From the IMG/VR virus record IMGVR_UViG_3300036715_003906, positions 186,001 to 250,000 of that record: 64,000 bases of DNA. One strand, 5' to 3'. The notes beneath the pieces are model-generated. The model was not told where the DNA came from, did not search any database, and was given only the letters and a program-made list of their open reading frames with translations. This DNA comes from a virus. Both the position numbers and the translations under genes were made by a program. Every line of letters starts with the position of its first letter. The stretch's first letter is position 1. Positions 26,786-60,161 of the stretch are shown in pieces.

Positions 26786-27077
26786 GACACTACTACGCAG
26801 TGCCCCCCCGGGAATCAAAAGCTGGGTCGTGTACATTTTGCAAAATGCCGACGGGCTCCTCTACACGGGGATCACGAACGACCTCCCGCGCCGGGTCGGG
26901 CGACACAATCGGGGCCAGGGGGCCCGGTACACGAAGGGCCGCGGGCCCTGGTCCGTGGCTTACACGGAGCCCGCCGAGGGGCACGGGGCGGCGCTCCGAC
27001 GGGAGCGGGCGATCAAGAAGCTCAGCCGGGCCCAGAAGCGGAGGATGATCACTTCTCCTGGGGGAGCGACGCCATGA
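26784..27077 (+). CDS. GIY-YIG endonuclease domain protein
   Basis: 97 residues. The motifs WVVYILQNADG (GIY-like strand), LLYTGITNDLPRRVGRHNRG (YIG and Arg helix) and the conserved Glu in LRRERAIKKLSR match the small UvrC/YhbQ-type GIY-YIG nucleases. The first 13 codons read through the opposing class A promoter, so the real start may be GTG at 26829 in VVYILQ. Likely a homing or repair nuclease. Its end overlaps the methyltransferase gene by 29 nt (convergent). Confidence 0.82.
   Translation: MTLLRSAPPGIKSWVVYILQNADGLLYTGITNDLPRRVGRHNRGQGARYTKGRGPWSVAYTEPAEGHGAALRRERAIKKLSRAQKRRMITSPGGATP
26790..26818 (-). promoter_or_regulatory. Class A promoter
   Basis: TTGATT, 17 bp, TAGTAG, then TGTC and ATG. 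Sigma70-type spacing; the transcription start would fall at or beside the ATG. Confidence 0.75.
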
Positions 27078-29571
27078 GGTCGAAGCCCTCCCGCTGGGCC
27101 GCTTCCTCGCGGGCGACCCGGAGGGCGTAGGCCACGCGGGAGGAGGCGATCTGGTGGTAGACGGGGTCACGCTCGATCCCGACGAAGGAGAAGCCCTCCT
27201 CCGTTGCCGCGACCAGGGTGGATCCCGAGCCCGAGAAGGGGTCGAGAACCGTGCCCCCGGGGGGCGTGATGAGCCGGCAGAAGTACCGCATGAGCTTCAC
27301 GGGCTTCGTGGTGGGGTGGTGGTTCTTGCTCTTGCTCCCCTGCGTCTCCTCCCACTCGGGCTCGGGGCAGGTGCAGTGCGGCTGCCCGAACTTGACGTGG
27401 CCGCAGAGCTGACACCGACGGTTGCTCTGGGTCGAGACCGTCTGCTCCACCAGCGTGTGCTGGGCCCTCGCCTCGACGTCCTCCTCGAACCCCTGGTTGC
27501 GCTCCCGGGTCGTGATCTTGCCGCAGTAGAAGAAGGGGACGTCCACCTCGGGCTCGAAGGTCTGGAAAAAGCGGGAGGCGCCGCCCCCATCACCGTAATC
27601 GACACCTGCGTACCCGGGAACGCCGGGGAAGTCCCCCTTGAAGCTACGCTGGGGCTGCGTGCGAGCCAGGGCCCGCGGACCCCCACTGCTCTTTTCCACA
27701 CCGCTCTGCTCGTCGAGGGCGCGGACGGGGCACCCCTCCTCGCACTCGTAGACGTCCACCTGCTCGTACGGCTTCCGCTCGGACGTGTAGGGCTTCCCCT
27801 CCCCGCCGTAGTCGTACCGGAGCTTCCCCTCGTACCGGTTCATGAGGGGCACGGGCGCCACCCGCTCCCCGACCTTCCGGCACGTCGGGCTGTGGGATAG
27901 GACCAGGTGCGCCGGCCAGCGACCCGACGTGGACGTAGGCTGCGCCTGTGCGGGATTCTCGGACCCCTCGCGGTAAGGGGACCAGAGCTTGCCCGACCCG
28001 CCGACCGGGGGCTCCGTCGTGCTGACCCGGCAGGCGTCGATGTGGAGGGCGCCCGTGCCGTGCTCCTTGACGTTCGCCGCCACGGTCCCCCGGAGCGGCT
28101 TTCGGATGAGCCACCAGTCCTCGACCGCCGGCTTGAGGGATGTCCCCCACCCCTCCCACTCCCCGGCCCGCTCGGGCGCCTTCCCCTTCGTGAGCGCCTT
28201 CGCCACGTTCAGGGACTTGGGAAAGCCGCTGTTCCCCGTGATGAAAACCTTGCCCTTGCGACGGGCCACGAAGGCCCCCTTGGGGACGCGGAGGCACCAG
28301 ACGTCCCCGGCATAGAACTCGGGCGGAGAACGGAGGTTGAAGGTCGACAGCGTGGTGTCAGCGTGCCGCGTGACCCCCACGTAACCCCCCTCGCGCGCCG
28401 CCCGGGCTGTGTTGTGCCCGCGCCACCCCACCAGGGAGAGGAGCGTCGTGAACCACTCCCGATCCTCGGGGGACTTCTGCTCCAGGGACATGCTGCCGCC
28501 CCCCCGCTTCAGCGAGGGCTTCGACGTGGTGCCATCTCCCCGGACCGCGGCCCGGAGGAAGGCACGTTTCTCCCCGAGGGTCATGCCCCAGAGCAGCTCA
28601 TAGGTCGGGTGCTTGTCCGGGAGATCCCGACGAATACGCTCCGCCATGTCTCCCGTGAAGGACCAGGTGATCATCTGGTAAGGACGCGGCCCTTCGTGCC
28701 GGGACTCGTAGGTCCGATCGTAGGCGTACCGGCTGTGCTTGCCCCCCGCGTCCCCAAGGAGTGCGTCAATCTCGGCCACCTTGTCCGGGTTGACCGAGGA
28801 CTGGTAGATGCGAACGCCGCGCCCCTTGCGGTCGTACCCACCCTCCGTCCAGACCCACCCGAGCAGAGAAGCGTACTCCTCACCTCCGATCCCAGGGCCC
28901 TCGTGAAGCCCCGCGAGCGGGAGGCGTTTCGGGGACGAACGGGATACCTCGGAGACCTCTGCCACGCGGTACGCGCTCCACCGCTTCCAGAGGGAGGTCC
29001 TGTGCCAGACCCGATGGTTGGGCGTCAGGAGCTGATCGGTGTCGGCGTTGCGCAGGACCACGAGATCACCCTCCCAGGGCGCGCGGAAGGTCTCCTCGAC
29101 AGCCGCGAGAGTGATCGCTTCGGTCCCGGGGTCCCACTGGGCCACCCTGTCCCCCACTCGCACATCCAAACCCTTGATCCACCCCGCAGGGGTCAGCACC
29201 TCGACGTCATCCGTCAGGCACCCGAAGACGTGGCCGATCCGGTCGCGGATCTCGAAGCCCGCGTTCTCCAGGGCGAGAGCCGTCCAGTGCGAGGTCCGAG
29301 GCAGGGCCCAGAACAGGCCATGGGCGCCGGGCTTCAGGATGCGGAAGCACTCCCGGGCGACCTCCTCGAGGAAGGCCACGAACCCCTCCCGGGCCGAGCA
29401 AGAACTGTCCCCGAAGGAGTCCCACTCCTGACCCATGAAGGAGATACCGGCTGGCTATGGGGGATCCGTGACGATGGAGTCCACCGAACCCGTCGGGAGG
29501 CGACGCAGAACGTCGAGGCAATCCCCAAGGATAACCTTGTTCATGTAGGCTTCGATTTGAACGTCGCTCAT
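27049..29571 (-). CDS. DNA N-methyltransferase with intein and in-frame amber codon
   Basis: Beta-class N6-adenine/N4-cytosine methyltransferase: motif IV is N-terminal, motif I C-terminal (DPFSGSGSTLVAA), with a KPVKLMRYF motif before it and a small CxxC insertion (CQLCG). The gene would start at ATG 29571 (MSDVQIEAY) or 29544. At 29455-29457 the tyrosine codon of the catalytic DPPY is TAG, giving DPP-stop-PAGISFMGQEWD. The frame is otherwise open to 27049. Without suppression, only a fragment lacking motif IV could be made (restart at 29436). A 330-residue intein interrupts the host protein after HVFG. Confidence 0.85.
28231..29220 (-). other. Intein with LAGLIDADG-type endonuclease
   Basis: Begins with Cys in CLTDDVEVLTPAGWIKGLD (splicing block A), has block B LLTPNHRVW with Thr and His, and ends VFITGN followed by Ser in SGFPKS. 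This is the Cys1, terminal Asn and +1 Ser needed for protein splicing, although the usual penultimate His is Gly here. Two degenerate LAGLIDADG motifs are seen (SLLGWVWTEGG and FLRAAVRGDG). It is placed between the two conserved halves of the methyltransferase, as usual for inteins in essential folds. Confidence 0.85.
29455..29457 (-). other. In-frame TAG replacing the Tyr of DPPY
   Basis: Codon order is GTC ACG GAT CCC CCA TAG CCA GCC. All homologues of this class carry Tyr/Trp/Phe here; one base separates TAG from TAC or TAT. Confidence 0.85.
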
Positions 29572-29591
29572 AGCTGCGGTATAAACCTGGT

Positions 29592-59428: not shown

Positions 59429-60088
59429 CTAACTCTGACAGTCCTCGTTCAAATGGTCGTAGGCCGTCCGCTCCGGCCCGGGCTCCCGCAGAACCCCCGT
59501 CAAAGGAGCCAGGTTCATCTCGCCCGTGAGGAACTCGCGGTTCTCCTCCGGGTCCCGCATCGGCCCCCGCGCCGGCTCGAAGAAGCTGGCAAGATCCGGG
59601 TCGCGCTCGTAGAAGGGCACGGCTCCGGGGGGGGGTAGCTCCTGCACCTGGAACATCTGCCGGGCGAGCGACGTCCGGTCCACGAGGTCCCTCATCCGGG
59701 GCAAGGCCAGGTTCGCCCCGAGCGGGCTCCTACGGAGGGTCTCTCGCATCGTCCGCGCCACCTGCCCCGTGACCTCTTCCGCTTGCCCCGAAGGACCTTG
59801 CAAGATCTCCCGTCCCGCCCTGAGCCTCGCGAGGGCCCGCGGTATGCTCTCCGTAGGGGTCCGCCCGAGAGGATCGACCTCGCCGGGTGTCTCCTCCCAC
59901 GGCATCCGGTCGAGCACCGTGTCCCCGAGCGGCGCCTCGTCGTCCACGAACGTGACGCGAAGAGCCTGCCCCGACAGGGTGACGTCAGCGACTTCCGGAT
60001 GCCCCGTCAGGTACGCTCGCATCCGTACCAGGTTGTGCTCGTGCAGCGGGTCGGAGTGGGGGAACGTGAGGAGCCGCGGGCGTGGCAT
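59429..60088 (-). CDS. Hypothetical protein
   Basis: 219 residues from MPRPRLLTFPHSDPLHEH. The N-terminal LVRMRAYLTGHPEVADVTLSGQALRVTFVDDEAP is an alpha/beta unit; the rest is helical and Pro-rich with an acidic end (YDHLNEDCQS). Divergent from the 60209 gene, sharing its upstream region. Function unknown. Confidence 0.5.
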   Translation of the reverse strand: MPRPRLLTFPHSDPLHEHNLVRMRAYLTGHPEVADVTLSGQALRVTFVDDEAPLGDTVLDRMPWEETPGEVDPLGRTPTESIPRALARLRAGREILQGPSGQAEEVTGQVARTMRETLRRSPLGANLALPRMRDLVDRTSLARQMFQVQELPPPGAVPFYERDPDLASFFEPARGPMRDPEENREFLTGEMNLAPLTGVLREPGPERTAYDHLNEDCQS

Positions 60089-60132
60089 GAACCCAACCCT
60101 ACGCGCCTTTCCGAAATCGACAAGCAACCCTT

Positions 60133-60161
60133 TTGATTCCCGTCACCCCGCTGCGTAGTAG
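60133..60161 (+). promoter_or_regulatory. Class A promoter with leader
   Basis: TTGATT, 17 bp, TAGTAG, then about 47 nt including GGAGAGAG before the ATG at 60209. Confidence 0.7.

Follow-up and report, generated by a model that had tools for sequence, protein, structure and literature searches.

A large tailed phage of bacteria carries a family of near-identical sigma-type promoters, here termed class-1, which very probably give rise to leaderless mRNAs for mostly small phage genes that are likely to belong to an early or middle class. In the mechanism we propose, an A-rich box, often GAAATCGAC, would be followed by TTTTGATTCC as the −35 element, a 12-nt gap, GCGTAGTA as the −10 element and, after five mostly C, T or G bases, a start A that usually coincides with the A of the ATG. 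The host RNA polymerase would start the transcript at this A and ribosomes would initiate on the bare 5′ AUG, aided by an unstructured, A+C-rich 5′ end, while the same promoter would yield a short leader carrying a Shine-Dalgarno sequence wherever the start codon lies farther off.

The analysed stretch of 64,000 nucleotides (the window, GC ~68 %) comprises bases 186001–250000 of a virus record of 251,474 bases. We fetched the whole record and called its genes with our own hexamer model, so that all gene starts given here are predictions. Encoded are terminase, portal and tail proteins, a family-A DNA polymerase and a DnaB-like helicase as well as a ribonucleotide reductase and a GroEL-like chaperonin, and the phage records searched with the record contained no close relative. 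A tmRNA gene and ~30 tRNA genes, two of them with odd anticodon loops of 4 and 2 bases, occupy window positions 14303–25667, where tRNA-Met was not found among the tRNA genes. Further observations concern a portal-like protein and a second large protein with intein-type domains (record 158569–161943 and 151328–154093) and a Ro60-like vWA protein (window 57604–59340, minus strand) that matches an RNA-binding family.

A tolerant two-block scan of the whole 251-kb record returned 29 copies of TTTTGATTCC-N12-GCGTAGTA plus one degenerate copy, whereas the same scan of the reversed record sequence gave no match. At a threshold of at least 16 of 18 positions, 27 copies were observed versus none in 20 second-order Markov simulated genomes, and the exact form TTGATT-N16..18-TAGTAG occurs nine times in the window versus zero expected from 100 shuffles; the repeat is genuine and lies far above chance. 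Only one of the 29 copies overlaps a called gene, at the 3′ end of that gene, in a record that is 83 % coding. The two blocks have TTGA and TA cores and stand at a spacing of 17 in 27 of the 29 record copies. These 27, together with two from a second phage termed G002, form the consensus alignment of 29 spacing-17 copies, in which 16 of 18 core positions are invariant in at least 27. The gap between TTTTGATTCC and GCGTAGTA is G-rich, the A-rich box lies ~13–18 bases upstream of TTTT, and past ~20 nt on either side the similarity between copies is slight. The hexamer TAGTAG is without the usual T at −7. A Shine-Dalgarno-like core is absent from the motif, the pre-start consensus reading GCGTAGTA(G/C)CCCC without AGGAG. 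The distance between the A-rich box and the −35 element varies by a few bases, for which reason we discarded the notion of a single, fixed dimer site made up of both.

Within the window, the initial annotation had counted 13 intact copies and a degenerate one; all 14 sites are present at these positions, but only nine are exact, as four of the supposedly intact copies are altered. On the minus strand, copies are located at 26790–26818 (ATG 4 nt past TAGTAG; ORF 25862–26785), at 33685–33713 (ATG 5 nt past TAGTAG; ORF 32828–33679, encoding the protein P0002 discussed below), at 41919–41947 (altered to TAGGAG; predicted leaderless ORF 41576–41914), at 45380–45408 (predicted leaderless ORF 44539–45375, PAPS-reductase-like) and at 46599–46627 (altered to TAGTAC; predicted leaderless ORF 46340–46594), the last of these overlapping the 3′ end of the upstream gene. 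The copy at 40710–40740 on the same strand combines TAGGAG with a 19-nt spacer and is the single exception to the 17-bp spacing that had been claimed for all but one; its 12-nt leader AGGAGACCCACC carries a Shine-Dalgarno sequence before the ATG of ORF 40277–40693. In the degenerate copy at 39621–39649 (minus strand) the −35 element is lost, while GCGTAGTAG-CGGC-ATGAAGACC, that is GCGTAGTAG-N4-ATG, is retained. The plus strand holds copies before the predicted leaderless ORFs 47811–47993 (copy at 47778–47806, altered to TTGATC), 48751–49041 (48718–48746), 49301–49510 (49268–49296), 49788–50054 (49755–49783, with a GAAATCGAC box upstream) and 51677–51991 (51644–51672). Also on this strand, the copy at 48015–48043 precedes a leader of ~28 nt with the Shine-Dalgarno sequence GAAGGA, the ATG at 48076 and an A retained at +1, and the copy at 60133–60161, which has a 33-nt identity with a G002 copy, precedes a leader of ~43 nt with the Shine-Dalgarno sequence ACGGAGAGAG and the ATG at 60209. 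The statement that most copies have their ATG 4–5 nt past TAGTAG thus holds for 11 of the 14, with 40710, 48015 and 60133 as the exceptions.

When the record copies and the two from G002 are taken together, the ATG begins exactly 5 nt past GTAGTA in 21 of 31, and another three have it at 6 or 7 nt; 22 record copies fall in the 5–7 nt range. Seven copies are devoid of such an ATG, and five of these nevertheless keep an A at the start position (p ~0.0015 by our own estimate, with A at ~16 % of bases). Three of the seven show a clear start 12, 28 or 43 nt downstream, each with a Shine-Dalgarno sequence, and for the copy at record position 23442 the later start is less clear. The retained A and the later, Shine-Dalgarno-bearing starts suggest that the promoter is separable from the start codon and that transcription begins at the A marked by the motif. 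If +1 is placed at this A, the −10 hexamer lies at −10 to −5 and the −35 element at −33 to −28, which is 2 nt closer than in the usual sigma70 layout; the proposal that the ATG coincides with the expected position of a sigma70-type start was therefore only roughly right, and a transcription start 2 nt later would remove the AUG.

The predicted reading of these transcripts without a leader, already put forward in the initial annotation, gains indirect support from the coding sequences themselves, as in most copies the coding score turns from negative immediately ahead of the ATG to positive at and beyond it. Shine-Dalgarno-like sequences precede only two of 22 class-1 starts versus 74 of 154 other ATG genes. 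The 5′ ends appear weakly structured, with an MFE for the first 40 nt of −3.05 kcal/mol for class-1 versus −7.73 kcal/mol for the others (p=1.3e-7), while at 60–100 nt the values of class-1 and other genes are nearly equal. In class-1 genes, the A+C content of the first ten codons exceeds that of the gene body by 0.19, versus 0.05 in other genes, and ACC serves as second codon in 8 of 24 class-1 genes versus 7 of 154 others.

In three class-1 copies outside the window (record 2927+, 3530+ and 45518+), AGG replaces the ATG at +1 to +3. From the AGG onward, coding scores are positive (0.04–0.07 over 42 codons) and the N-termini behind it resemble the MTT.../MAT... of other class-1 genes, but the 5′ ends are structured, unlike those of the ATG copies. 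No tRNA with a CCT or CAT anticodon was found in the record, and these copies represent either a lost start or an unusual one. It is worth mentioning that the downstream coding frame of a further class-1 start, MKTLTSETATPS at record 46350+, is in a different phase, which points to an indel or a frameshift.

The copies are unevenly distributed, with 28 of 29 located at 0–48 or 212–251 kb of the record (p=3e-12), while the gap between these regions holds the terminase, portal and tail genes. If the record is permuted or circular, both regions would form one block; an end repeat was not found in the record. Most genes behind the copies are short and have no assigned function, the exceptions being the PAPS-reductase-like protein, a SWIM-like zinc finger protein (a weak match) and P0002. 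A distribution that nearly spares the structural block fits an early or middle gene class and is in line with the temporal class suggested from the window.

The motif is also present in G002 (IMGVR_UViG_3300036715_004341), a partial contig of 60 kb with a GC content of 69 %, which has two full copies before an ATG and one near-copy but has little other DNA and few proteins in common with the record. As regards relatives, the motif was thus found in another phage, but this is the sole one and offers two or three copies only. Among viral contigs we detected 33 distinct motif matches, of which only the two from G002 have a correctly placed ATG and none of the 31 distinct sequences outside G002 does. 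A scan of the viral contigs for the −10 and ATG half alone gave 16 stretches outside G002, none with a −35 element, and searches of the same contigs for relatives via the DNA polymerase, P0001 and P0003 (both described below) returned none useful. As a separate observation, a second start-linked motif, (G)GTGTA, which is not accompanied by a −35 element, occurs 9–14 nt ahead of the start codon in 16 genes of the record and 15 of G002, compared to ~4 and ~1.6 expected, respectively, for the whole 40-nt upstream stretch. Examples are the starts of window 41958–42593 (minus), 62385–63425 (plus) and 9146–10807 (minus). This motif has a GYGTA core in common with class-1 and mostly stands without a Shine-Dalgarno sequence.

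The near-identity of the copies could in principle reflect common descent only, if the repeat were a recently duplicated cassette or a recombination site. Record copies 1590 and 233776 indeed have identical 14-nt spacers, and G002 copy 29943 appears as a mosaic whose 5′ part matches record copy 246131 and whose 3′ part matches copy 990. We nevertheless regard this reading as improbable, since similarity is slight beyond the immediate flanks, the core is nearly invariant while spacers differ, and the motif is common to a phage with almost no other DNA similarity. The sequences rather suggest that the copies, besides being under selection, have probably been multiplied by duplication and shuffling as well, and part of the strictness may stem from recent shuffling of copies. 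Two earlier statements need to be amended in this light: the sequence outside the boxes does not vary freely throughout, as spacers mostly differ but are G-rich and in several cases identical or nearly so, and selection rather than duplication was too strong a wording that should read both, since copies seem shuffled.

The class-1 promoters may be read by the host main sigma or by a phage sigma, and both possibilities refine the same best explanation. Use of the host main sigma, with the promoters acting as strong early promoters that are kept strict to outcompete host genes in a T4-like manner, is a plausible reading, if somewhat short of probable. The TTGA and TA cores, the 17-nt spacing and the A-rich upstream box all speak for it, as do the small uncharacterised genes of takeover type and the occurrence of the promoter in G002. 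TAGTAG is, however, a poor match to TATAAT, although selection for strength should approach the consensus, and when one genome from each of 84,980 bacterial and archaeal species was scanned for the 18-base motif, the only matches were two in AT-rich Bacteroidetes that are attributable to chance. A candidate reader encoded by the phage itself is P0001 (window 31944–32804, minus strand), an ECF-like protein with a sigma-70 region 2, which matches Sigma70_r2 (PF04542) above cut-off and many ECF sigma models below their own cut-offs. It is adjoined 23 bp upstream by P0002 (window 32828–33679, minus strand), which lies behind the class-1 copy at 33685 and has the look of a sigma region 2 by eye only. 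It is possible, though doubtful, that P0001, perhaps with P0002, reads the class-1 promoters as a middle-time, self-amplifying regulon. Besides the family match and the class-1 copy before P0002, this is favoured by a core far stricter than that of usual housekeeping promoters and by the CGTA contained in it; CGTA is a −10 core of some ECF sigmas. Furthermore, a gene for the beta′ subunit of a multi-subunit RNA polymerase was not found in the phage in a search whose control worked. A search for the single-subunit RNA polymerase family gave no match, but its control was silent as well. On the other hand, no Pfam match to a sigma region 4 was detected in P0001, its C-terminal helices appear only in a poor model, and P0002 has no significant match among the families in the library. 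Searches with both proteins found no homologue among the phage records, nor was one found in G002, which carries the promoter but is a partial contig. Structure models of both proteins, computed without alignments, were of too low quality to be used. The fuller proposal that such a self-amplifying ECF-like sigma, P0001 and perhaps P0002, runs a dedicated leaderless regulon of ~30 promoters in which transcription start and start codon are fused appears rather unlikely. Elsewhere in the record, P0003 (171431–172045) contains two sigma region 4 motifs, one clear and the other weak, and adjoins a 5′-3′ exonuclease with a NusG-like N-terminus.

Instead of a promoter, the repeat might be an element acting at the level of translation, comparable to the Start Associated Sequences (SAS), an assumption suggested by the constant interval that separates most copies from the start codon. 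We consider this very improbable, as at least three copies located 12–43 nt before a Shine-Dalgarno-bearing start still keep the motif, and two blocks at fixed spacing, free of a Shine-Dalgarno-like core, suit a promoter. SAS and ESAS repeats are described for Cluster K mycobacteriophages (PMC3203893) and Cluster EF Microbacterium phages (PMC7302621). Like the class-1 copies they are short, strict repeats before the start codons of scattered genes, but they consist of a 13-bp repeat at the ribosome-binding site, with AGGAG in Cluster K, whereas the class-1 motif has two blocks and no AGGAG.

With a class-1 promoter remaining the best explanation, its closest counterparts are other phage promoters. 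The early promoters and PeMob promoter cassettes of T4, the latter referred to in the literature as ‘mobile regulatory cassettes’, number in the dozens, are near-identical, stand ahead of small genes and are apparently shuffled, while T4 genes have leaders with Shine-Dalgarno sequences. Class-1 is alike in its many near-identical, apparently shuffled promoters before small genes and differs in that most of its starts are predicted to be leaderless. In Corndog, a Cluster O mycobacteriophage, the SigA-like promoters PL1, PR2 and PL2 are predicted to start at the first base of the start codon (PMC4351075). Both phages thus have promoters with a predicted transcription start at the start codon, but those of Corndog are a few ordinary SigA-type sites per genome, compared to ~30 copies of one strict sequence for class-1. 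The middle and late promoters of Thermus phage P23-45 reportedly yield leaderless transcripts made by the host RNA polymerase. Here, too, a promoter class of one temporal group is tied to leaderless transcripts, as is predicted for class-1, but the P23-45 class is of the extended −10 type (PMC7403470) without a −35 element, whereas class-1 has −35 and −10 elements at fixed spacing. For phage AR9, transcripts were described by the authors as ‘often leaderless’ (PMC5312081). If our interpretation holds, an entire class of genes in a large phage is expressed from a single strict promoter type and translated from bare 5′ AUGs. Its roughly two dozen matched leaderless genes, for which the leadered genes behind the same promoter serve as internal controls, would then constitute a natural set for studying leaderless mRNA translation and a possible bypass of host initiation control by phages. 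Both leaderless phage promoters and repeats linked to gene starts are already known; class-1 is a strict variant of such elements, from which it differs in its copy number, its strictness and the leadered siblings of the same promoter.
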